Positions 1-30,646 of a DNA stretch of 30,646 nucleotides are shown one piece after another. Source of the DNA: a virus; IMG/VR virus record IMGVR_UViG_3300005265_000747, positions 1-30,646 of that record, one strand, 5' to 3'. Numbering within the stretch: position 1 is the stretch's first letter; every line of letters begins with the position of its first letter. The notes under the pieces are model-generated. The model was not told where the DNA came from and did no database searches. It saw only the letters and a list, made by a program, of their open reading frames with translations. Position numbers and translations under genes: made by a program.

Positions 1-177
1 AAGTTATTTGCCTTCAAAGTTCTTTATTTCCAAGAAGGGCGTGATGAAATAATTCAAGTTTGGAAAAAAGATGATAGTTCGAATTTTATGTTTTGCTGGC
101 CAAAGAAGAATTCAGAAGATTATAATTGGATAAAAAACTGGTCTTGGAAGAATGAAAGAGAGGAGGAAATTAAATGA
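1..177 (+). CDS. Methyltransferase-like protein, C-terminal fragment (runs off the left edge)
   Basis: An open frame enters from base 1 and ends at TGA 175-177, whose first bases overlap the ATG of the next gene (ATGA). The 58 visible residues align by eye with the C-terminus of the downstream methyltransferase: an aromatic F-x-F-K block, then I-x-x-VWKK, then a W-P-x-K motif and a Trp-containing acidic tail. This suggests two tandem paralogues in one operon. The catalytic domain lies outside the window, so the family is inferred only from this similarity. Confidence 0.6.
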   Translation, partial: KLFAFKVLYFQEGRDEIIQVWKKDDSSNFMFCWPKKNSEDYNWIKNWSWKNEREEEIK

Positions 178-815
178 AAGAAAAAAGTGGATTAGAAATA
201 AATTCTTTAAAATGGAAAAAGCTCTTGGAAATACAAAAAGATACAGAATATGAAAAAACTGGACAAGAAGAACCAATAGTGTTAGAGCGTTTCCTTAAAG
301 TAGTTAAGAACTTCACGAAACCAGAAGATAAAATTCTAGAGATTGGTGCAACTCTTAGAGAAAGAGAGAAACTTAAAGAACTAGGTTTCTTAAATTTAAT
401 AAGTATTAACTTAGAAGGAACTAAAGAAATCCTTCAAATGGATATGCATAATCTTCAATTCGAAAGAGAAAGCTTTGATATAGTTATAGCTAAGAATACA
501 GTAGAGCATTCCTTCATACCTTGGCTATTGTTTCTAGAAATAAGGAGTGTTCTTAAGACTGGAGGTCTATTTATCTTTACTATGCAAAATTATCATCCAT
601 GGAATCGACTTTTTGAACATCCCTTTTTAATTCAAGAGGATTATGTTGAAAGTTTGGAAAGATTCTTTGGATTTAAGACTATTTACCGAAAAGATTATCA
701 GTCTCAAATTGTTCTAGTCTGGAAAAAACTAGAAGATTGGAAAGCTATTAAATGGCCTAATAAGAAATTTGATCCTAAAGAGTTTGTAAAAGAGTGGGAG
801 AGGATCTTTCATTGA
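174..815 (+). CDS. Class I SAM-dependent methyltransferase (Methyltransf_11-like)
   Basis: 213 residues with a Rossmann-type methyltransferase core at about 50-140. Motif I is ILEIGA (54-59), but the usual G-x-G that follows is missing (ATLRE instead). An acidic QMDMHNL segment (88-94) and FDIVIAKNTVEH (101-112) match motifs II to IV, and the LKTGG at 127-131 matches the post-motif loop. The ATG is preceded by GGAGG seven bases upstream and overlaps the previous stop. The ATP-grasp, aminotransferase and epimerase genes that follow suggest a sugar or glycan substrate. The degenerate motif I may mean weak SAM binding or a non-catalytic paralogue. The substrate is unknown. Confidence 0.75.
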   Translation: MKEKSGLEINSLKWKKLLEIQKDTEYEKTGQEEPIVLERFLKVVKNFTKPEDKILEIGATLREREKLKELGFLNLISINLEGTKEILQMDMHNLQFERESFDIVIAKNTVEHSFIPWLLFLEIRSVLKTGGLFIFTMQNYHPWNRLFEHPFLIQEDYVESLERFFGFKTIYRKDYQSQIVLVWKKLEDWKAIKWPNKKFDPKEFVKEWERIFH

Positions 816-1696
816 GAAATGTGTTAGTAACTGGAACAGATGGAGGAGCAGCTCAATCAATTATGAAATGTCTAAGAAAGGCAAAGAAATATAGAATAAT
901 AGCTACTGGAATAGATCCTTTGTGTATAGGTATTCACATGGGAGATGTTGGTTATTTAGTTTCTAAGGACTGGGAAGAATATAAGAAAGAACTTAAGGAA
1001 ATCTCAGAGAAAGAAAACGTAGATATAATAATTCCAGGTTCCGATATAGAACTAAGTCACTTTGCCAATAATAGAAAATGGTATGAAGAGAATTGTCCTC
1101 CTATCTTGATAGATTGGAAGAATGTAAATATTGCTAGAGATAAATATCTTCTCCAAGAGAAACTAAAGGAGTTAGGATTTCCTTATATTAAAACCTGGAA
1201 AGTAGATGAGTTTGATAAGATAGATACTTGTCCTGTTGTTCTTAAACCTAGACATGGCTTTGGGTCAAATATGCTATTCAAAGAGGTTAGAAGGAAACAC
1301 GTAAAGAGTTTAGCTGATTATATTCAAAACCAAGGTTGGGAACCTATTGCTCAAGAACAGCTTTATGGGAGAGAATATTCCTGCATGACATTAAGAGCTA
1401 AAGATGGAGAATTATTAAGTTATTTCATAGCTTGGTCTTTTAAGAAGTTTGGTCAATCTTATAAGACAATAATAAAGAAAGATGATCCTCAGATAAGAGA
1501 CTTAATTATTAGATTAAGTGAGAAATTAAATTCAATAGGACCTCTATCTATTCAATTGATAAAAGATACAGAAAGTGGAGAACTTAAGATCTTTGAATTA
1601 AATGCACGTTTTACAGGAGCTCAAATAGTTAGAGCAGAGGGAGGAGTCAATATGGTCGATCTAGCAATAAGGAGAAATATCCTCTTTTTAATGTAA
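812..1696 (+). CDS. ATP-grasp ligase (CarB/PylC-like), C-terminus probably truncated
   Basis: 294 residues from the TTG at 812, chosen because GAGAGG lies eight bases upstream, the TTGA overlaps the previous stop, and the protein then opens with the expected NVLVTGTDGG Rossmann start. An in-frame GTG at 794 lacks these features. The N-terminal domain is about 1-100. The ATP-grasp domain follows, with VVLKPRHGFGSNML as the ATP-binding loop and KIFELNARFTGAQ near the end carrying the metal-binding E and N. Such enzymes join a carboxylate to an amine or thiol using ATP. The protein stops abruptly after RAEGGVNMVDLAIRR, about 25 residues earlier than relatives usually do, at a point where a deletion seems to fuse it to the next gene. 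Confidence 0.75.
   Translation: MRNVLVTGTDGGAAQSIMKCLRKAKKYRIIATGIDPLCIGIHMGDVGYLVSKDWEEYKKELKEISEKENVDIIIPGSDIELSHFANNRKWYEENCPPILIDWKNVNIARDKYLLQEKLKELGFPYIKTWKVDEFDKIDTCPVVLKPRHGFGSNMLFKEVRRKHVKSLADYIQNQGWEPIAQEQLYGREYSCMTLRAKDGELLSYFIAWSFKKFGQSYKTIIKKDDPQIRDLIIRLSEKLNSIGPLSIQLIKDTESGELKIFELNARFTGAQIVRAEGGVNMVDLAIRRNILFLM
1680..1695 (+). other. Inferred deletion junction between ATP-grasp and aminotransferase genes
   Basis: Left of this point the frame is an ATP-grasp C-terminus. Right of it, in another frame and with no start codon, the DNA encodes VIVPTFTFIATAN, a hallmark segment that normally sits about 80-100 residues inside a DegT/StrS aminotransferase. The expected N-terminal part with the SGTAAL phosphate-binding loop is absent. 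The simplest reading is a deletion of roughly 300 bases that removed both the ATP-grasp tail and the aminotransferase head. Confidence 0.55.
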
Positions 1697-1755
1697 TAGT
1701 TCCTACCTTTACTTTCATAGCAACTGCCAACGTCCCAAGAGTCTTTAAAATAGAA

Positions 1756-2550
1756 ATGGAACTAGTAGATGCTAGAAAAGATACCTGGAATCTAGAAGTA
1801 CCTAGTTATTTAAAGGGAGATGTAATAATGGCTGTCGATGTAGGAGGATTGCCTTGTGACTATGATAGACTTAAGAAGACAGGAGCTATCATTTTAGAAG
1901 ATGCTGCTGAAGCTGTAGGTGGAATTTATAGAGGAAAGAAAGTAGGAAGTATTTCAGATATAACTACCTTTTCTTTCCATTCAGCTAAAGTTATGAGTAC
2001 AGGAGAAGGAGGGATGATTACTACTAACAATAAAGAACTTTATCAAATAATGAAGAGTATAACTAATCAAGGATATCCTGAAAACAAGAAAGCTTGGGAA
2101 TATGAACATCCAAGAGTAGGACTTAACTTTAGAATGACTGAAATGCAATCTGCATTAGGATTAGTTCAATTAAAGAAACTTTCTAAGTTCTTAAGAAATA
2201 GAAGAGAGATAGCTAGGATTTATAAAGAAGAATTAAAGAAGTATGGTGAATTTCAAAGAGTACCGAAAGATAGAGTTCATCCTTACTTCCTATTTGGTAT
2301 TTTAGTAGAACCTAAGAAAAGGGAGAAGCTTATACAAGAACTGAGAAAGAATGGCATAGGTGTGAAAGTAACCTGGAAACCTGTTCATCTTCAGAGACCT
2401 TATAAAGATGAATTCTCATTAAAGAAATTTACCAATGCTGAATATCTTTACAAGAGAATAATTAGTTTGCCAATACATAATAAGATGAACGAGGAAGATG
2501 CAAAAGAAATAGTCTCTATCTTTAAAAAATGTTGGAGGAAAATAAAATGA
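1756..2550 (+). CDS. DegT/DnrJ/EryC1/StrS aminotransferase, N-terminally truncated
   Basis: 264 residues from the first ATG, although homologous coding (VIVPTFTFIATAN) runs back in frame to about 1690 without a start codon. The PLP-binding Asp is in ILEDAAEAVG (D49) and the Schiff-base Lys in SFHSAKVMSTGEGG (K78). The C-terminal small domain with FLFGILVEP and the VTWKPVHLQ region is complete. Family members are about 360-400 residues and convert keto-sugars to amino-sugars. This copy lacks about the first 75-80 residues, including the phosphate-cup SGT motif, so it is probably inactive unless the missing part is supplied elsewhere. It ends in an ATGA overlap with the epimerase. Confidence 0.75.
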   Translation: MELVDARKDTWNLEVPSYLKGDVIMAVDVGGLPCDYDRLKKTGAIILEDAAEAVGGIYRGKKVGSISDITTFSFHSAKVMSTGEGGMITTNNKELYQIMKSITNQGYPENKKAWEYEHPRVGLNFRMTEMQSALGLVQLKKLSKFLRNRREIARIYKEELKKYGEFQRVPKDRVHPYFLFGILVEPKKREKLIQELRKNGIGVKVTWKPVHLQRPYKDEFSLKKFTNAEYLYKRIISLPIHNKMNEEDAKEIVSIFKKCWRKIK

Positions 2551-3404
2551 AAATAACAATAACTGGTGGATCTGGATTTATAGGAACTCAATTAGCCTAT
2601 TATCTGAAAAAGAAAGGACACCAATTTTTGATAGCTGATGTTAAGGAACCTTCTATAGACTTAAGAAATTATTATCACTTCTGTGATATTACAGATCCAT
2701 ATCAAGTTCAGGATGTTATCGAAGGACAAGATCTCGTCTTTCACCTGGCAGCTAATCCAAATCCAGGGAGAGCCGAAAATAATCCTAGATGGGATTTAAG
2801 GATAAATGTTGAGGGAACTATGAATGTACTAATGTGTTGTCTAAGAGAAAAGAATAGAATGATCTTTACTTCTTCAGCAGCAGTAAAGTATTCTCCACAT
2901 TCTTGTTACGCTATCTCAAAGAGAACGGCAGAGAATTATATTCTTCATTATGTTGAAAAGAAGAACTTAGATGCTAGGATAATGAGGTTCTGGAATGTCT
3001 ATGGACCTACTCAGTCTTTAGGCTATGTAATCCCTGACCTTATGGAGAAATTATACCGAGATCCAGAGAAGATTAAAATCAGAGGAACAGGATTTGACTT
3101 AAGAGACTTTGTCTATATAGATGATGTTCTTAAGGCTCTTTGGTTAGCAGCAACGAAAGGAGAGCCTGGGAAAATATATGAAGTAGGAACTGGTTCTCAA
3201 GTTACTATTAGAGAACTAGCTGAACTGATAGGAGAAGTAATAAACAAGAAAAAGCCAAAAGTAATTCCATCTAAGAAACTCTTAGCTTGGGAAAGAAATG
3301 AAATACCAGAAGATCTAGAACCAATAAAGAAACTAGGATGGAAGCATGAGATAGAGTTGGATGAAGGAATTTATAGAGTTTATAAAGAAAGATATTTGAA
3401 GTGA
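2547..3404 (+). CDS. NAD(P)-dependent epimerase/dehydratase (extended SDR)
   Basis: 285 residues from ATG 2547, with GGAGG eight bases upstream and overlap with the previous TGA; an in-frame TTG at 2529 is not needed. The nucleotide-binding GGSGFIGT is at 7-14, followed by an HLAAN segment. The catalytic set is S110 in FTSSAAV plus Y121 and K125 in YAISK. RFWNVYGP and the DFVYIDDV block are typical of UDP-glucose 4-epimerase and dTDP-glucose dehydratase relatives. It probably interconverts or dehydrates a nucleotide sugar, the last step of this small cassette. The exact sugar cannot be read from the sequence. Confidence 0.85.
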   Translation: MKITITGGSGFIGTQLAYYLKKKGHQFLIADVKEPSIDLRNYYHFCDITDPYQVQDVIEGQDLVFHLAANPNPGRAENNPRWDLRINVEGTMNVLMCCLREKNRMIFTSSAAVKYSPHSCYAISKRTAENYILHYVEKKNLDARIMRFWNVYGPTQSLGYVIPDLMEKLYRDPEKIKIRGTGFDLRDFVYIDDVLKALWLAATKGEPGKIYEVGTGSQVTIRELAELIGEVINKKKPKVIPSKKLLAWERNEIPEDLEPIKKLGWKHEIELDEGIYRVYKERYLK

Positions 3405-3433
3405 AAAGATATGAAAATAAACAAGAGAGGGTT

Positions 3434-3466
3434 AAGAAGGAAGTTCCGATTAATGGATGCCTTCTT
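3434..3466 (+). repeat. Hairpin 1 of a four-hairpin array
   Basis: Perfect 7-base arms AAGAAGG and CCTTCTT enclose TCC-GATTAAT-GGA, a weaker inner stem with a CCGAT core like that of the next three hairpins. It lies just after the epimerase gene and is followed by a pyrimidine-rich run, so it could also act as a terminator. Confidence 0.5.
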
Positions 3467-3484
3467 CCTTTCTTGTTATCAACT

Positions 3485-3521
3485 GAAAGAAGATGTGCCG
3501 ATAGGGCTGCTTCTTTCTTTT
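3485..3521 (+). repeat. Hairpin 2 of a four-hairpin array, followed by TTTT
   Basis: Perfect 8-base arms GAAAGAAG and CTTCTTTC enclose an inner GCC-GATAG-GGC stem-loop. The design matches hairpin 1 (purine arm, CCGAT-capped inner stem, pyrimidine arm). A short T run follows, then the strong ribosome site AGGAGGG. Confidence 0.55.
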
Positions 3522-3538
3522 AAGAGGAGGGACATGGC

Positions 3539-3997
3539 ATATCAATAGATGCCGATAAGGCATACAGTACCGATAAGGTACACGAAATAAGAGATAACTC
3601 CATAGATCTTTCTCCAAAAGAAGTAATTCCTATAGATGATCATGGTCATTCAATAGAACTTCTCTTCTATAAAAGAATAAAAGTAGAACTCTTAACTAGT
3701 GCCCTTCTAAAAGAGATCTGGGAAATGAGAAATGCCAAAGCTCCTCTTTCTGTATTAGAAACTCCTTTCTTCTTTTTTCTTCAATATCCTTCTAAACCTG
3801 TAATAATTATAGATAAAAGAATAGGAAGACTTCTAACTCTTACAGATGGATTTTCCAAACATGAGCAAAGTAAACAAGCTGGATTCATTATTCGTATGCT
3901 TAAGAAATTCGATCTAGTTGAGAAGGTATCTTATAAGAGAATAACTCTCGAAGAATGGAAAAAGAAAAGAAACTCTTTCCGAGGTGAGAATGCATGA
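3539..3997 (+). CDS. Unknown small protein, start codon missing or frame broken near 3534
   Basis: The safe part is 3725-3997 (90 residues from ATG 3725), but the same frame is open back to TAA 3521-3523 and reads as plausible protein from about 3600 (SIDLSPKEVIPIDD and onward). No ATG, GTG or TTG exists upstream of 3725. A strong AGGAGGG at 3525-3531 sits eight bases before an ATA at 3539 and only a few bases before an out-of-frame ATG at 3534 that meets a stop after four codons. So either ATA is used, or a small indel broke the start. The C-terminal half (TLTDGFSKHEQSKQAGFIIRML) could be a small winged-helix domain. It overlaps the PAPS-reductase-like gene by four bases and may be its partner. 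Function unknown. Confidence 0.5.
   Translation: MSIDADKAYSTDKVHEIRDNSIDLSPKEVIPIDDHGHSIELLFYKRIKVELLTSALLKEIWEMRNAKAPLSVLETPFFFFLQYPSKPVIIIDKRIGRLLTLTDGFSKHEQSKQAGFIIRMLKKFDLVEKVSYKRITLEEWKKKRNSFRGENA
3549..3581 (+). repeat. Hairpins 3 and 4: tandem 15-base stem-loops with GATAA pentaloops
   Basis: ATGCC-GATAA-GGCAT (3549-3563) and GTACC-GATAA-GGTAC (3567-3581) are two perfect 5-bp stems with the same five-base loop, three bases apart. The closing pairs of the stems differ while the CCGATAAGG core is identical. Shape and loop resemble the boxB hairpins of lambdoid phages (GNNRA pentaloop), but nothing like an N protein is seen here. They may be RNA-protein sites, a leader regulator or mobile hairpins. 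Confidence 0.6.
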
Positions 3998-5064
3998 AAA
4001 TTGAAAAATTAAGAAAGAGACAAAAACTAAGTCTCGAAAGAAAGATTGCTCTTTCTAAGAAAATTATTAAACAGTTTTATGAGTTTCTAGATGGAAAAGT
4101 TTATGTTGCTTTTTCTGGAGGAAAAGATTCGACTGTTTTGTTACATCTTGTAAGAAGTCTTTATCCGGAAGTGCCTGCTGTTTTTTGTGATACTGGTCTA
4201 GAATATCCTGAGATAAGAAACTTTGTGAAGACTGTTCCAAATGTTATTTGGATAAGGCCTAAAATGAGCTTTGCTCAAGTTATAAAGAAATATGGCTACC
4301 CGGTTATTTCCAAAGAACAAGCAATGTATATTCGACAATATCGTACTACTAAGAGTCAATATCTTAAGAGCATAAGATGGGCCGGTAAAGATGGTAAATA
4401 TAAGATAAGTGAGAAATGGAAGTTCCTAGTTAATGCTCCTTTCAAGATCTCAGAAAGGTGTTGTGATGTTTTAAAGAAAGCTCCCTTTAGAAAGTTTGAA
4501 AGAGAAACAGGGCTTCGTCCATTCCTTGGGAATATGGCCTCAGATTCAGACGTAAGAACTCGTGTTTATCTTAAATATGGATGTAATTATTTCGAGAAAG
4601 TAGGGAAAGAGAGATCTACTCCTCTCGGTTTCTGGACAGAGAAAGATATTTGGGCCTACATTAAGAAATACAAATTAAAATATTGTAAAATTTATGACTT
4701 AGGTGTAGACAGAACTGGTTGTATTTTCTGTATGTTTGGTATTCATAAGGAGAAGAATAATCGATTTGAGATTCTAAAAAGATTGCATCCTGAATTATAT
4801 AATTATTGTATGGAGAAATTAGGCCTGAGAATGGTTTTAAAATATATAGAAAAGAATCTTCAAAGTCAAAAAAGAAAGCAAAGTAGGAAGAAGGTAAAAA
4901 AGAAGAATTCTCCTATAAAGAGTAAAGTTTATAAGAGGAAAACCCAAAAAATAAAGTCTAAAAGAGGTGAAAAAAAGTATGGATCCACAAATAATGATGA
5001 TCTTGTCCGGAGTCGGAAAGGGCCTTGTCTATGGTGGAATTGCAGCAGGTATTGGTTATATTAA
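3994..5064 (+). CDS. Phosphoadenosine phosphosulfate reductase-like (PP-loop) protein
   Basis: 356 residues; the ATG has GAGGTGA six bases upstream. The PP-loop SGGKDS is at 41-46, followed by CDTGLEYPEI (65-74). Conserved-looking cysteines are a CC pair at 156-157, C197, and C243/C246 in GCIFC, which could hold an iron-sulfur cluster as in DndC-like and many phage-encoded relatives. The family activates substrates by adenylation. In viruses the role is unclear: sulfur assimilation, DNA phosphorothioation or nucleotide modification have all been considered. The last 70 residues are Lys/Arg-rich and the final 29 run out of frame through the next gene. Removing one A from an A6 tract near 4945-4950 would give a stop at about 4953, so an indel may have extended it. 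Confidence 0.8.
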   Translation: MKIEKLRKRQKLSLERKIALSKKIIKQFYEFLDGKVYVAFSGGKDSTVLLHLVRSLYPEVPAVFCDTGLEYPEIRNFVKTVPNVIWIRPKMSFAQVIKKYGYPVISKEQAMYIRQYRTTKSQYLKSIRWAGKDGKYKISEKWKFLVNAPFKISERCCDVLKKAPFRKFERETGLRPFLGNMASDSDVRTRVYLKYGCNYFEKVGKERSTPLGFWTEKDIWAYIKKYKLKYCKIYDLGVDRTGCIFCMFGIHKEKNNRFEILKRLHPELYNYCMEKLGLRMVLKYIEKNLQSQKRKQSRKKVKKKNSPIKSKVYKRKTQKIKSKRGEKKYGSTNNDDLVRSRKGPCLWWNCSRYWLY

Positions 5065-14285: not shown

Positions 14286-14666
14286 TTACACTAAGGCTAC
14301 AGATTTTGCTCTAAAGTCAAAGTCTTCCTTTAGGAAGCCATCTTGAGGGATATCTACTGCCCCTCTTTCAAACTTGCAGTTATAACAATAAAGTTTCACT
14401 GCACCACCACCAATCTCAAAGCAAAGAGTAAACTCATTAAGAGATCCACTACCAGTTACTAGTTGAAGGTATGTTTTATTGACCCAAGCTTTAGAAAGAG
14501 ATCCTGTGACCTCTTCATTCCCTTCGACTAGATCAGTTGGTTGTCTACCACCTATTTGATAGAAAGCTTCTAGATTAGTAGCTATTTCAACAGATGCTGA
14601 ATCTGCATGCCCTATTTCTACATCATCCTTGTAGATTTTTGCATTCCAACCTTTATAGACAGGCAT
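14286..14666 (-). CDS. Tail tube protein paralogue 3
   Basis: 126 residues from ATG 14666, chosen because TTAGGTGA lies seven bases upstream and MPVYKGW matches the start of both paralogues; an in-frame GTG at 14678 lies in the ribosome site. The protein has an MPVYKGWNAKI start, EIG, an EAFYQIGGRQPTDLVEG strand-loop, a GSLSKAWV segment, then FDFRAKSVALV as the last strand. Tube proteins form stacked hexameric rings that carry DNA. This copy has its own TTTAAATA box about 41 bases upstream, so it is perhaps the most abundant form. Confidence 0.75.
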   Translation of the reverse strand: MPVYKGWNAKIYKDDVEIGHADSASVEIATNLEAFYQIGGRQPTDLVEGNEEVTGSLSKAWVNKTYLQLVTGSGSLNEFTLCFEIGGGAVKLYCYNCKFERGAVDIPQDGFLKEDFDFRAKSVALV

Positions 14667-14699
14667 TCTCTTTTTCACCTAACATTAAAAGGAGCAAAG

Positions 14700-14715: not shown

Positions 14716-15507
14716 TTAACAATTAAGAATAAAATAATCTAGATAAAAGCAATTTTGACCAATAGCATGCCAACACCAAACTTTGAATTTTGATAGTTTC
14801 TTTCCTTCAACAAGATGAGGTCTCACATTGTATTTGGTCCAGTCGTTATATAAAGTAAATTCTTTTGTGGTAGAAGAACCATCACTATAGGTAGCTACCC
14901 ATTTCATATATGAGGTTTCTGCGCAAATACGGGCATAAAAATAAAGTTCATTAATAAAATTAACAGGAATAGGAACTCCATAAATATCTTCAAAATTCTG
15001 CTCAATTGAGGAAGTACCAAAACCTACGGCACATTTACTTCCATCTTTTCCTAAGTCACCAATTTCCCAAGTTCCAGATTTTGACCAATAAGAGAAATCT
15101 CCAGTTTCGAAAGAATTATTCTTAAACATTTGTCCCGAAAAATAATATGGAGTAATGCTTTTAGCTATAAATTGAAAGTCTTCAGTGATTATCCCGCCTT
15201 GTCCTCCTATGAATGAGCCTTTTGATAGTTTACAATTTTCTACCAAAATACCCATTTTATCCACTTCAAGATCTAGTTCAAAGGTACTAGATGAATTTAA
15301 AAGGTTAAAGTAATAAGAATTAACCCAAGCTTTCTTAAAACTTCCTTGAAGTAAACGTTCTCCAGGAATTATTGTTGAAGGGAACCTTGCTCCAGCTTCA
15401 AAATAAGTCTCAGAGTTTTCCTCTATTTCTAATCTCCAGTTTTCGACATATCCTATTTCGATCCCATCAAGGAATAATTTTGCTTTCCACCCTTTATAAA
15501 CTGGCAT
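14716..15507 (-). CDS. Tail tube protein paralogue 2 with C-terminal carbohydrate-binding-like jelly-roll
   Basis: 263 residues, twice the length of its neighbours. Residues 1-120 are a tail tube domain (MPVYKGWKAKL, EIGY, ETYFEAGARFPSTIIPG, GSFKKAWVNS, DFQFIAKS). Residues 131-263 start NNSFETGDFSYWSKSG, then a beta-sandwich with YMKWVATYSDGS and a CFYLDYF end, a carbohydrate-binding-module-like jelly-roll also found at the end of the hub. The start TAATG overlaps the stop of paralogue 1. It probably decorates the tube outside, perhaps for glycan binding. It could be a minor tube subunit, as in phages that mix two tube proteins. Confidence 0.75.
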   Translation of the reverse strand: MPVYKGWKAKLFLDGIEIGYVENWRLEIEENSETYFEAGARFPSTIIPGERLLQGSFKKAWVNSYYFNLLNSSSTFELDLEVDKMGILVENCKLSKGSFIGGQGGIITEDFQFIAKSITPYYFSGQMFKNNSFETGDFSYWSKSGTWEIGDLGKDGSKCAVGFGTSSIEQNFEDIYGVPIPVNFINELYFYARICAETSYMKWVATYSDGSSTTKEFTLYNDWTKYNVRPHLVEGKKLSKFKVWCWHAIGQNCFYLDYFILNC

Positions 15508-15911
15508 TAGACAACAGCCACAGATTTAGCTATGAAAGTATAATCTTCAGTTAAAACTCCTTCTTGAGGGATAGTAATCGTTCCTTTACTAAATTTACAG
15601 TCATAGACATATAATCCTAATGCAAAACTAGGTGACTGCCCTGGAGGTTTATTCCAGACTTGAATATAGAGATCGAAAGAAGAAAGACTTCCTGAACCAG
15701 AAATCAAACTTAGATAAGTTGTATCAACCCAAGCTCTTTTGAAAGAGCCAGTAATATTCATAGGTCCTTCCACTATTTGAAGGGTACTTCTATTCCCTGC
15801 TTCGAAATAAGCTTCTAAAGAATGATCTATATCAATTCTTACTTGTTGGACTTTGCCAACTTCAGTACCATCTATTAGTATCTTTGCGTTCCAACCTTTG
15901 TAAACTGGCAT
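15507..15911 (-). CDS. Tail tube protein paralogue 1
   Basis: 134 residues; GAGGGAATAAA precedes the ATG. It shares MPVYKGWNAKI, EVGKVQQVRIDIDHSLEAYFEAGNR and GSFKRAWVDTTYLSLISGSGSL with the two following genes, plus the FIAKSVAVV end strand. The family is the phage tail tube/major tail protein (gpV-like) fold. It follows the tail terminator gene with one base between them. Which of the three is the main tube subunit cannot be told. Confidence 0.75.
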   Translation of the reverse strand: MPVYKGWNAKILIDGTEVGKVQQVRIDIDHSLEAYFEAGNRSTLQIVEGPMNITGSFKRAWVDTTYLSLISGSGSLSSFDLYIQVWNKPPGQSPSFALGLYVYDCKFSKGTITIPQEGVLTEDYTFIAKSVAVV

Positions 15912-25654: not shown

Positions 25655-27217
25655 CTAACCTCCAAGAGAGGTGTCTTCATACATAGTCACATATTGAGTA
25701 AGACCATCTACTCCTATCACTCCTATAGTCTCAACAGGAATATACCTAGTATCTCCTACTGAAGATTTCCTGACTCGGATAATAACTTCTACATCCGATC
25801 CTGGATATTGAAATGTTTCTTCTGCCTTTCCATTTGCGTCAGTTAGTTCATTCATTAGTTGAGTCATGTCAGAGGATTTATAAATAGCAACTCTGGCATT
25901 TGAAATTTCTACTCCATCGCTATCTTTGACATAAACTTTTAAGTAAACTACGTTTTGAATTTCCACCGTTCCACCAGATGGTGAAGAAGAGGTGCTTGGA
26001 TTTGAGCCGTTGACACACTGGACTACTACTGTTCCACCAGAAGTATTATAAATATCTATATCATTTCCAGTAAAAGTAAGATTGTCAAAAGTGAAAGTTC
26101 CTGGAGTATCAATTTCTACAGCTTTTGGATTTGACAAGAAGGAACAGTCTTTGACATTATGTGAAGAAGGTAAAAGCAGAGCAACATCGTCAGCGTCAAC
26201 AAACGTACAAAATCTGAAAGTAGAACTTGAAGGGTTTATTCTAGCACAAGATTGAAAGAGACAATTTAATACTTCAGCTCCTACTGTCTCAGAAGGAAGA
26301 GTTATAGTTGAAGCATCTAGAAAAGTAACTCCACATAGCTTGAAAGTTGAAACATCTACATCAGTGATAGTCACTTTATAGGGGTAGATAGTATTCTTTG
26401 CTCTAATTAACCCACCTGCAAGACCTACTTCTCCAGATTTTTCTCCAAAGAGAACGGAGGCTATTCCACTAGGGTTGTTTACTACAGAAATTTCGAATTG
26501 ATCTGGGATTGAAGGTAAATCTTCAAACTGAACAACTTGCAATTTGTCAGAGAAATAGACATCACCAGAACTTGTATCACCAAACTGGATTCCTCCAGTT
26601 AAAAGATAGGTTTGTTCTCCTTTCTGAATCACACCTATATCAGAAGTATCATCATCTGAAAAAAGATCCTCCCAAGTTAATGGAGAAGCGGCAGACCCTC
26701 CTGTTATCTTAACTGCAGGTTGAGTAGCAGATCCATATCTTACAAAATCTACATAACAGTTATCAGCTAGTTTGCTCTTTGCCACTCCTTTGTATCTTAC
26801 TCCTATATAACGAGTTTGTGAAGGATCTGCGTTTGTTCCATTATTTGCATCTGGAGTTGAAGAGCAATAAACTGAGAAACATTTCCAACCTCCTTTATAG
26901 GTATCGCTTCCACCTACGTACCAATACGATTGATTACCAGAAGAATCTTCTATGAAAATTTGCATACCTCCATTTGCCTTTGTATCTAAGAAGGAGGCAG
27001 TCATGCACATCATCCAGACATAGAGAACTCTATTGGAATAATCCTGAGCAGAGCCTAGATCATAAATCATATAACTTGTTTCTATATCTACATCCATTGA
27101 GAGAGAATAAGATCCTTCTTTCCTTATATCGTCTAAGCCAAAAGATGGATCGTTAGAGTCCCAGTTAGTTTCTGAATCACAATTAGATATTGTTGTAAGA
27201 TTACTCGTTACTGTCAC
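25655..27217 (-). CDS. Multidomain fibre protein: jelly-roll, beta-helix, carboxypeptidase-regulatory-like domain
   Basis: 520 residues from GTG 27217, preceded by GGTGA and overlapping the previous stop. Residues 1-170 look like a carbohydrate-binding jelly-roll (DSETNWDSND, YSLSMDVD, DNCYVDFVRYG). Residues about 255-415 have the T-x-x-x-C/F ladder of a right-handed beta-helix (CGVTFLDASTITLPS, NCLFQSCARINPSS, FCTFVDADD, CSFLSNPKAVEI). Residues 430-505 look like a CarboxypepD_reg Ig-type domain (VYVKDSDGVEISNARVAIYK). Typical receptor-binding or depolymerase-like layout. No catalytic residues evident. Confidence 0.65.
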   Translation of the reverse strand: MTVTSNLTTISNCDSETNWDSNDPSFGLDDIRKEGSYSLSMDVDIETSYMIYDLGSAQDYSNRVLYVWMMCMTASFLDTKANGGMQIFIEDSSGNQSYWYVGGSDTYKGGWKCFSVYCSSTPDANNGTNADPSQTRYIGVRYKGVAKSKLADNCYVDFVRYGSATQPAVKITGGSAASPLTWEDLFSDDDTSDIGVIQKGEQTYLLTGGIQFGDTSSGDVYFSDKLQVVQFEDLPSIPDQFEISVVNNPSGIASVLFGEKSGEVGLAGGLIRAKNTIYPYKVTITDVDVSTFKLCGVTFLDASTITLPSETVGAEVLNCLFQSCARINPSSSTFRFCTFVDADDVALLLPSSHNVKDCSFLSNPKAVEIDTPGTFTFDNLTFTGNDIDIYNTSGGTVVVQCVNGSNPSTSSSPSGGTVEIQNVVYLKVYVKDSDGVEISNARVAIYKSSDMTQLMNELTDANGKAEETFQYPGSDVEVIIRVRKSSVGDTRYIPVETIGVIGVDGLTQYVTMYEDTSLGG

Positions 27218-27695: not shown

Positions 27696-28039
27696 TTCTT
27701 AACCTCCTCTTCTACTTCTATTTTTCTTTTTGCAACATAAACTATTTCTCCAGTTACTCTAATTCCAATTTCAAGAGCCTGCTCAAACTTAGCAGAAGGT
27801 CTCCATCTTAGAGTTAAAGGTTCTGCTTTTCCGGGTTGAATTGTGACAGGCGCTTTCACTACTTCTATTTTTTCAGAAGGTGGCAACGGACTAGAAAACT
27901 CAAAAGCCAAATTAGTGAGAATCCCTTTTGAGTCATTAAGAAGCCAAACAGTAACTTCTTTACTCTGACCAACTTTTACTTTACCAAAGTTAATAGCTTT
28001 TATTTCTTCCTTTAAATCTGGGTCTTTGAAGATCTTCAT
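27692..28039 (-). CDS. Ig-like structural/decoration protein
   Basis: 115 residues with the pattern of an Ig-like (ASPM/SPD-2/Hydin-type) domain: INFGKVKVGQSKEVTVWLLND, then FEFSSP, then PVTIQPGKAEPLTLRWRPS, a second beta sheet. It overlaps both neighbours by 4 bases (ATGA). Ig-like proteins of this size often decorate capsids or tails and bind surface carbohydrates weakly. A role on the outside of the virion is inferred. Confidence 0.6.
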   Translation of the reverse strand: MKIFKDPDLKEEIKAINFGKVKVGQSKEVTVWLLNDSKGILTNLAFEFSSPLPPSEKIEVVKAPVTIQPGKAEPLTLRWRPSAKFEQALEIGIRVTGEIVYVAKRKIEVEEEVKK

Positions 28040-30303
28040 TCCTTATTAACCTCCAACCATTTTTCTATTAATTCTAGTTTCTTTTTAAGCAACTCCTTTT
28101 TCAACTTTTCTTCTTCAGTATCTTTCTCTGATGCCTTTCTTTCTATCTCTTTTAAGATTTTAAGTACTGCAGAGTCAACTTCTTTTTCTAACTCACTTTC
28201 TGTTTTCTTTCTTTGCTCTCTTATTAATTCTCCTTCCCAAGTATGTAACTTATTCTTCCTTATCCACTCACTAGCTTTATCTACTGACCATTCTTCTGAT
28301 ATTTTCAACCCACATACTCTTGCTCCATGAATAGTACCTGGTCTTGGATAAAGACACACTAGGACATCAAGAACTTCTTTTGGCCTATCTTTCAAAGCAG
28401 GGATATATTTCTCAGGATCTTTTACACATCTTGTAAATTCTCCAATATCGTAAAGATACAACCAATAGTAATCCCATGTTTTCTTTTTCTCTACTTTGAA
28501 AGGTCTGTAATAATCTCCTGTTGTTGGATCTCCTGTTCCAGAAAGTGGTTCAGGGAGTTTTGCTTTCTTAAAGACAGCTTCTTTATCTTTCTCTATATAG
28601 ACATAATAGCCTTTTAATTTCTTTCCATGAAATTCCATTGAGATAAATATTGGTGGTTTGTATTCAATTATACTTACATCTCCCTCATCTATAGGAGTGA
28701 CATAAGTAATCAAGTTACCTATCATCATTTTAGTCTTAGGCTTTTTGATATTCATCCATTTCTCAATATTCAAACATCTTTTATATACAGCCTTAACACC
28801 TTCACCTTTTTCAAGCTCTACGGGATTTCCATAGAGATTAAATTCCCAGCCATCTGAAACTCTAACGTCCCAATGTTTTTTCAAACCTTCTGGTGTTTCT
28901 ATTTCATGAATTTGTAAGACAAATTTAGCCTTTTTCAAATTACTAAGTTTTTCTACTTTCCAAGTATAGATTTTAGAACCTTTCTCTTCTTGAATTAGAG
29001 CAAACGTACCTTTTAACTTCTTTCCTTTCATTTCTAAAATTAGTTTCTCAGTCCCATTTACTTTTTCACTTTTAACATTTACCTTTCCTTTGTCAATTAT
29101 TTTCATTTTAGCATTCAGTTCTTTAGTAGGATTATAAGTTGGATTCTCTCCTGGCTTAATTTCTCCTTCATAATCAAACCACTTAGAAGCTACATATCCT
29201 TCGTCAGTCAAAGGAACAGGTTGGAATCTAGTAAAGTCATAATCAGAAATGAACGATCTTACTTTGCCTCCTTCTTTTAATCTTAATAACCATCTCATTC
29301 TAGGTATTCCTCTTACGTGTACTGGACCCATCCAAGATAGATAATGAACAACAAAACTAGCTTCTGCCAGCTCACTTTTGCTTTCTTTGCTTTTCTTGCC
29401 ACCTTTCCATTGTTCTTTGACCCACTCATACCATTTCTCATAGAGCTCTCCCTTTCTCCATTCTGGTGGAACTGGGATATAGTTCTTAGGTGGAACCCAT
29501 TTCTTTTTCATTCCTCTTTTTAGACAATACGGAGTTTGATCTCCAGGAATCAAGATCCTCCACATTAGTTCTGTCCCTGGTTTAGGCTTCTTAGTTTCTG
29601 GATCAATTATATTCACATTAACTGCTCTTACTATTACTCTTGTCCAATCTTTCTTAGAGAAAACACCATCTTTCTTCTCTGATTTAATAAAGTACTCATG
29701 GAAGTAAGGTTTTTGAGCACCAAAGTAAACTTGACCCTTATCGATGATATAGAAAACTCCAGGATATTCTTTCGTGGCTCCTACTTCTCCTGGTTTAACT
29801 ATCCCTTCTACGTTTAACCAAACTTTAGGTTGTCTAGCTAATTCTTCTAAAGTTCTTAAAGAAAGCTTTTCTATATTTTTATACTCAATAAAGACTTGAC
29901 CGTCTTTGATTCCTTTTATAGAATAGGTCCATTCATCACAAACTTCTGAAGGACATTTGGTTTCTGCTCTTAAGCCAATATTCTTTTTCTCTGGTCGGAA
30001 TTTGAATTTACTTTTCCATTCGTTAAAGACTTTTCTAGCTTCTTTAACTGTAGTAACAGTAGGAGTTCCTTTTGGATTATCTAATACTGTCCAACCTATT
30101 AGATGGTCGTTTACTTCCATTCTCCAGTCAGTATGTACACTAGCCCCTCTCCAATGATGTTGCATAACGTATTTACATTTCTTGCAAGTAGGATATTCCA
30201 TATAGGGTGCAAGAAAGAATCCACCTTCTCCTCCCTCACCTTTCTTAGGAGGAGCTTTAGCAAGAAGTTCTAGCCAATTAATTATCTTAGGAGTTATCTT
30301 CAA
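28036..30303 (-). CDS. Triple LigD 3'-phosphoesterase-like protein
   Basis: About 755 residues; I favour TTG 30303 (AGGTGA five bases upstream) over ATG 30324. After a linker with KKGEGGEGG comes a CKKC pair and MQHHWRG, then VHTDWRMEV, matching the LigD phosphoesterase motif QKH...HYDFRLE with H-x-D-x-R-x-E intact. A second, degenerate unit has VVHYLSWMGPVH, RMRWLLRLK and KGKKLKGTFALI. A third has FVLQIHE, KKHWDVRV and EFHGKKLKGYYVYI. GKKLKG is also typical of this family. The phosphoesterase domain removes 3' phosphates or ribonucleotides at DNA ends. No ligase or polymerase domain is attached. Position upstream of the protease, in a structural operon, suggests a virion-associated or packaging-linked DNA-end enzyme. 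Confidence 0.6.
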   Translation of the reverse strand: MKITPKIINWLELLAKAPPKKGEGGEGGFFLAPYMEYPTCKKCKYVMQHHWRGASVHTDWRMEVNDHLIGWTVLDNPKGTPTVTTVKEARKVFNEWKSKFKFRPEKKNIGLRAETKCPSEVCDEWTYSIKGIKDGQVFIEYKNIEKLSLRTLEELARQPKVWLNVEGIVKPGEVGATKEYPGVFYIIDKGQVYFGAQKPYFHEYFIKSEKKDGVFSKKDWTRVIVRAVNVNIIDPETKKPKPGTELMWRILIPGDQTPYCLKRGMKKKWVPPKNYIPVPPEWRKGELYEKWYEWVKEQWKGGKKSKESKSELAEASFVVHYLSWMGPVHVRGIPRMRWLLRLKEGGKVRSFISDYDFTRFQPVPLTDEGYVASKWFDYEGEIKPGENPTYNPTKELNAKMKIIDKGKVNVKSEKVNGTEKLILEMKGKKLKGTFALIQEEKGSKIYTWKVEKLSNLKKAKFVLQIHEIETPEGLKKHWDVRVSDGWEFNLYGNPVELEKGEGVKAVYKRCLNIEKWMNIKKPKTKMMIGNLITYVTPIDEGDVSIIEYKPPIFISMEFHGKKLKGYYVYIEKDKEAVFKKAKLPEPLSGTGDPTTGDYYRPFKVEKKKTWDYYWLYLYDIGEFTRCVKDPEKYIPALKDRPKEVLDVLVCLYPRPGTIHGARVCGLKISEEWSVDKASEWIRKNKLHTWEGELIREQRKKTESELEKEVDSAVLKILKEIERKASEKDTEEEKLKKELLKKKLELIEKWLEVNKE

Positions 30304-30646
30304 TTTCTTCACCTGTATCTTCATCTATTTCTTTTACCTTTAACTCTTTTATATCATAATAATAAGGCTTTACAAATCTACATCTATACACATTAGCAAA
30401 ACGACAAACTATTGGGAACTTAAGATATTCTATCTCTATCTTATCAATTTTCTCAGAGAGTTCTTTCTTTTCTTTATCTCTAGGTATGAAGAATCTTGTC
30501 TTGAAAGGACAGATTCTTTCATCATTCCAGAAAGGACAAGGTTCTAATTTGAAGACTAACTTAGAGAGAGTTACTCTTTGTTCTTTGGTTGGTCCAGTTC
30601 CTACAGCTTCTATCTTCTTCACCACATCTAAGGAATCTGGTTCTTT
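30287..30646 (-). CDS. Unknown cysteine-motif protein (runs off the right edge)
   Basis: The open frame continues to the window edge (KEPDSLDVVKKIEAVGTG), so the start lies outside; a GTG at 30625 is unnecessary. It has two similar cysteine pairs: CPFWNDERICPF and CRFANVYRCRF, both of the form C-[PR]-F-x(5,6)-C-[PR]-F, which could bind zinc or an iron-sulfur cluster. The end is acidic. It overlaps the phosphoesterase-like gene by about 17 bases. Function unknown; perhaps related to packaging or to the following DNA-end enzyme. Confidence 0.55.
   Translation of the reverse strand, partial: KEPDSLDVVKKIEAVGTGPTKEQRVTLSKLVFKLEPCPFWNDERICPFKTRFFIPRDKEKKELSEKIDKIEIEYLKFPIVCRFANVYRCRFVKPYYYDIKELKVKEIDEDTGEEIEDNS

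Follow-up and report, generated by a model that had tools for sequence, protein, structure and literature searches.

In MS2, coat protein bound to the operator represses translation (PMC3561173). The operator loop is AUUA, and AUCA also binds strongly (PMC12803234, PMC3561173). The T4 proteins gp32 and RegA resemble the system proposed below in that a protein of a double-stranded DNA phage binds the leader of its own message, at the ribosome-binding site. For gp32 the target is a pseudoknot together with unstructured sites, and for RegA a linear element.

We describe a locus with repeated hairpins at the ribosome-binding site of an orphan gene, orfX. The DNA analysed (the window), a fragment of 30.6 kb, comes from a tailed virus whose capsid is of the HK97 type, and the hairpins lie 3′ of its sugar epimerase gene (2529-3404). 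In our judgement they are probably parts of an RNA leader that acts in cis on the translation of orfX and whose loops are read by an RNA-binding protein, with OrfX as the likeliest candidate. Counted with the corresponding loci of its relatives, the leader would represent a family of structured control RNAs not described before, at a single orphan gene shared by five related tailed viruses, all uncultured.

The original prediction named four consecutive inverted repeats, and all were found at the coordinates given, on the plus strand. Hairpin h1 (3434-3466) sits inside a longer stem (3420-3477) and is part of the minimum free energy (MFE) fold; from the outside in, it consists of an outer stem, the arms AAGAAGG/CCTTCTT, an internal loop (AAGT/TG), an inner stem (TCC/GGA) and the loop GATTAAT. 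Hairpin h2 (3485-3517) has a purine arm (GAAAGAAG), a pyrimidine arm (CTTCTTTC), an internal loop (ATGT/TG), an inner stem (GCC/GGC) and the loop GATAG. The two share a plan: the outer arms are purine/pyrimidine, A(A/T)GT faces TG in a 4/2 internal loop, the inner stem has 3 bp, and the loop begins with GAT. Hairpins h3 (ATGCC-GATAA-GGCAT, 3549-3563) and h4 (GTACC-GATAA-GGTAC, 3567-3581) are 15-nt units, and only these two have the identical GATAA pentaloops that had been noted. The paired outer-stem changes between them are real, with two base pairs altered on both sides, one from A-T to G-C and the other from G-C to A-T. The common internal loop of h1 and h2, and the bracketing of the ribosome-binding site by the hairpins, had both been missed.

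The hairpins are real, and the region carries more structure than expected by chance. The MFE of the leader RNA (3411-3590) is -59.6 kcal/mol, compared with -36.9 +/- 4.0 in 200 dinucleotide shuffles (z -5.7), none of which was as low (0/200). In the whole window, h3 and h4 are the sole pair of same-loop hairpins of at least 5 bp lying within 150 nt, where shuffles give an expectation of 0.1. CCGATAAGG has no second copy in the window.

The gene that follows, previously taken as possibly broken, is orfX (3539-3997, plus strand), whose conserved core begins at about 3620. Homologues are present in four IMG/VR contigs, G010 (120.7 kb), G019 (133 kb), G022 (121.5 kb) and G033 (38 kb), and identity among the five OrfX proteins is 21-45%. 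The open frame spans 3524-3997, is conserved in the relatives, and would start with ATA, not ATG; the open reading frame (ORF) listing shortens the gene to 3725-3997 because there is no earlier in-frame ATG, GTG or TTG. A Shine-Dalgarno sequence, AGGAGGG (3525-3531, plus strand), has SD-like counterparts at the equivalent place in the four relatives. Seven nucleotides 3′ of it is an in-frame ATA (3539-3541, plus strand), at which orfX appears to start; the corresponding codon is ATG in G010 and ATA in G033, and the starts in G022 and G019 are CTG and ATG. The stretch from start to core is open at all five loci (joint shuffled probability about 1.5e-6). A frameshift into orfX from the ATG at 3534 (MAYQ, then stop) was considered and dropped, because G033 would need a different shift and the in-frame ATA is normally spaced. 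Three of the five orfX genes thus have, at normal Shine-Dalgarno spacing, a near-cognate in-frame codon instead of AUG: AUA at 3539 in the window, AUA at 26468-26470 in G033, and CUG near 88257 (minus strand) in G022.

The relatives first came to light in capsid and tail-protein scans; when viral contigs were scanned by pattern or protein for orfX alone, G010 was the one relative returned. Synteny with the window is seen in G010, where aminotransferase and epimerase genes precede orfX and tail genes on the minus strand come after it, and the genes neighbouring orfX differ between viruses. As read from translations, the gene 3′ of orfX encodes a papain-like protease in G010 (79.4-80 kb), a trypsin-like protease in G022 and a PAPS-reductase-like protein in the window.

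Hairpins surround the orfX Shine-Dalgarno in all four relatives. Those of G010 are AGGAC-TATAG-GTCCT, TACAAAC-TATCTG-GTTTGTA and GTAGAC-TATCAG-GTCTAC, with an upstream stem GAAGGGAT..ATCTCTTC whose inner part is TGTCT-ATA-GGGCA. G033 has GGAGAG-GA-TCAC-TATCAG-GTGA-A-CTCTCC, TGTCC-TATCTG-GGACA and AAAACC-TATCTG-GGTTTT; G019 has GAGGG-ATCT-CCCTC, GGTGT-ATCT-ACACC and TCTCT-GTCTATTGT-AGAGA; and G022 has CAATTA-TCTTG-TAATTG and GGGATG-GTCT-CATCCC. The upstream hairpins of the window, G010 and G033 follow a common plan of an outer purine/pyrimidine stem, a small internal loop or bulge and a short inner stem. The hairpins of G019 and G022 are less regular, and the downstream stem of G019 has a 9-nt loop. 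Loops differ by virus (GATAA in the window, UAUCWG in G010 and G033, AUCU in G019), and short AU-centred loops recur: AUCU, AUCA, GUCU and AUA.

The position of the hairpins is fixed. The first stem 3′ of the Shine-Dalgarno begins 13-17 nt from it at all five orfX loci (17 nt for h3), compared with a stem at this distance at 54 of 2935 SD-like sites (1.8%) and 8 of the 538 with an ORF; the interval was set after the five loci had been seen, and this background includes the orfX sites. Searching by loop gives the same location. The sequence CTATCWGG (both strands) has nine copies in G010 and seven in G033, and stems of at least 3 bp are found only in two and three of these, respectively, all at orfX; copies away from orfX extend into stems of 0-1 bp. 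Across the genomes, pairs of hairpins that have the same loop and lie within 150 nt are rare; in the window, G010 and G019 they sit at orfX.

Covariation was counted in an alignment of eight hairpins, which folds with an AUCU, AUCA or GUCU tetraloop closed by U-G, G-C or U-A. Paired cells make up 89.3% compared with 50.4% when shuffled, and 24 cells are changed on both sides compared with 7.3 (0/500), counts that are biased upward because the hairpins were picked by pairing; the same-loop, loop-first and position tests are less biased. Both-side changes occur at all seven pairs, and slid registers lower pairing to 32-52%. Selection on the structure, which the original prediction had read from h3 and h4, is strongly supported by the homologous loci in four other viruses, where stems vary in matched pairs. 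A covariance model of the hexaloop hairpins, trained on the relatives and too short for wide search, ranks four of its own members first (best other locus E 0.7), and the window copies barely scored. Neither the window nor the loci of the four relatives match Rfam at gathering or relaxed thresholds. Coding conservation, which might have accounted for h3 and h4, does not explain the structure, because the encoded N-terminal residues are unconserved and the hairpins of the relatives lie in other frames or in untranslated DNA; the upstream hairpin of G033 is inside the coding end of the epimerase gene.

In the window the epimerase gene closes a sugar-modification cassette (174-3404: methyltransferase, ATP-grasp, aminotransferase, epimerase). 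Its DegT-type aminotransferase ORF (1756-2550) lacks the first ~113 profile positions, and is either truncated or has another start. Three tail genes (14286-14678, 14716-15507 and 15507-15911) are mutual paralogues by cross-hits. A 762-aa protein (28036-30324) is conserved in the relatives, with a weak match to LigD 3′-phosphoesterase (TIGR02777, E 1e-7). A further contig, G001, overlaps the window at 97.6-100% identity and sits in an Archaeoglobales metagenome-assembled genome (MAG) from Guaymas Basin; another relative sits in a Shapirobacteria MAG. With contigs of the virus group (L099, L100) binned in an Archaeoglobales and in a Shapirobacteria MAG, at least one binning is doubtful. Family-B DNA polymerase is encoded in all five contigs, and the archaeal PCNA marker is absent from them.

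A leader of this kind might work as follows. One or two hairpins precede the Shine-Dalgarno and one to three come just after it, beginning within what would be the footprint of the initiating small subunit: the first downstream stem would begin about 8-10 nt into the coding region. That distance is inside the ribosome footprint. An RNA-binding protein would recognise the loop (AUCU, AUCA, GUCU or AUA), and stem letters may drift in matched pairs because the stem would be needed only as a shape. A translational leader is the simplest account; a constant loop on arbitrary stems, repeated, is the pattern that a loop-reading RNA-binding protein would select. Bound to several hairpin copies, the protein would either clamp or release the initiation site. 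With OrfX as the reader, this would be feedback control; a host protein or another viral protein might serve instead.

In the window and G010, the upstream pyrimidine arm could pair either with its own purine arm, leaving the Shine-Dalgarno free, or with the Shine-Dalgarno, hiding it, and so act as a switch. The pyrimidine arm of h2 is complementary to the orfX Shine-Dalgarno, and competing pairing is predicted. A segment around the start codon (GGCATATCA, 3536-3544, plus strand) is predicted to pair with 3492-3500, with the Shine-Dalgarno hidden, or, via GGCAT, with the 5′ arm of h3. At 37 C, when the habitat may be hot, pairing the Shine-Dalgarno with the pyrimidine arm of h2 gives, in the window, a fold better by 5.7 kcal/mol than the one in which h2 forms, the two folds are near equal in G010, and the open form dominates in G033. 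A Shine-Dalgarno-hiding switch is therefore possible in the window and G010 by these predictions, and is not general, because of G033.

The structural data would be identical if the leader were read by a host protein, another viral RNA-binding protein or a metabolite, and we hold such a reader to be possible though doubtful. OrfX has no detectable RNA-binding family, and Pfam, PHROGs, NCBIfam and PDB sequences gave no family for it at all. Searches of phage records with the OrfX protein and the leader DNA gave no matches; orfX was not found in 59 Archaeoglobi genomes or 393 genomes of that phylum; and Foldseek gave no significant match in PDB or viral models. The AF2 model of the OrfX core (pLDDT 88, pTM 0.80) aligns with archaeal TBP halves at Z 6.3 and 6.1, other folds scoring about 5. 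The modelled fold thus seems to resemble a single TBP half, at a middling Z of 6.3 that is no proof of nucleic-acid binding. OrfX nevertheless seems the likeliest reader, because the element is at one locus per virus; that this is always orfX suits feedback better than a regulon.

The hairpins could instead act as DNA, as sites for a recombinase, for replication or for a hairpin-promoter polymerase (as in phage N4) beside a variable gene cassette. Nearly all stem pairs are Watson-Crick, and the neighbours of orfX do vary between viruses, as this reading would have it. It sits poorly with the fixed Shine-Dalgarno spacing and with loops that are always in sense orientation at orfX. A U-G wobble also closes the loop in five of the eight aligned copies, which suggests an RNA element. 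We regard action as DNA as unlikely. We judge it equally improbable that a stem after a weak start codon merely slows the ribosome and so raises AUA or CUG initiation with no protein involved. The near-cognate codons of the window, G033 and G022, at normal spacing, and the stem 13-17 nt after the Shine-Dalgarno speak for it; the upstream hairpins and conserved loops are left unexplained by it, and G010 and G019 have AUG.

A transcription antitermination site like boxB/nut or HK022 put is very improbable. The hairpins share with lambda boxB a small loop in viral RNA and a similar shape, a resemblance that the original prediction had raised and that does not hold further: the three to five hairpins straddle the Shine-Dalgarno and start codon, are tied to orfX, and in the relatives have AUCU, AUCA or AUA loops unlike boxB. 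Lambda nut has a boxA, and its boxB is single. With at most one mismatch, boxA (CGCTCTTA) is not found between 1399 and 4365, its whole-window count equals chance, and there is no boxA-like site within 900 nt. Nor was an intrinsic terminator (GC stem plus T run) found in 3200-4100, or anything in a sigma-70 promoter scan. Chance or a by-product of coding is scarcely credible: a repeated hexapeptide can give two in-frame hairpins, but the same-loop pair, loop-first, position, covariation and MFE tests contradict this, and it is refuted in practice by the relatives, whose peptides and frames differ.

Among other leader types, RNA thermometers and Shine-Dalgarno-hiding riboswitches resemble the orfX leader in that two mutually exclusive folds are predicted for the window and for G010; they differ in that multiple loop-conserved hairpins are atypical of them, and no Rfam match was found. 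A CsrA/RsmA target is not indicated, there being no GGA in the loops of h1-h4. Unlike the T4 gp32 and RegA sites, the orfX leader has repeated hairpins with conserved loops. We found no matching RNA control element in Rfam or in a limited literature search, and little is known of cis-acting RNA control in uncultured tailed viruses. Conserved loops, covarying stems and fixed Shine-Dalgarno spacing offer a route to a new RNA-protein pair, and tandem hairpins with the same loop and different stems are detectable by a simple genome scan where sequence alignment and a covariance model fail.

The MS2 operator, which is not related by descent, would by analogy be the closest system in function. Alike are the short stem-loop at the start codon, the loop that in the orfX leader, too, a protein would read, the unpaired or internal-loop bases in the stem, and the AUCA and AUCU loops in relatives of the window virus. 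The MS2-type loop is AUUA or AUCA with an unpaired purine in the 5′ stem; the window has GAUAA, GAUAG and GAUUAAU, and AUCA is seen only in hairpins G010d and G033a. In place of a levivirus coat protein gene there is an HK97-type major capsid gene, in a double-stranded DNA tailed virus, and the hairpins come in several copies, with AUCU, GUCU or AUA loops, and bracket the start codon rather than contain it. At its most ambitious, and rather unlikely, the reading would be that a tailed double-stranded DNA virus, possibly archaeal, combines a multi-hairpin RNA switch, an orphan protein with a TBP-like fold and an AUA or CUG start to hold synthesis of that protein at a set level; the locus would then be the equivalent, in a DNA virus, of the MS2 operator, and would bring with it a new RNA-binding fold.
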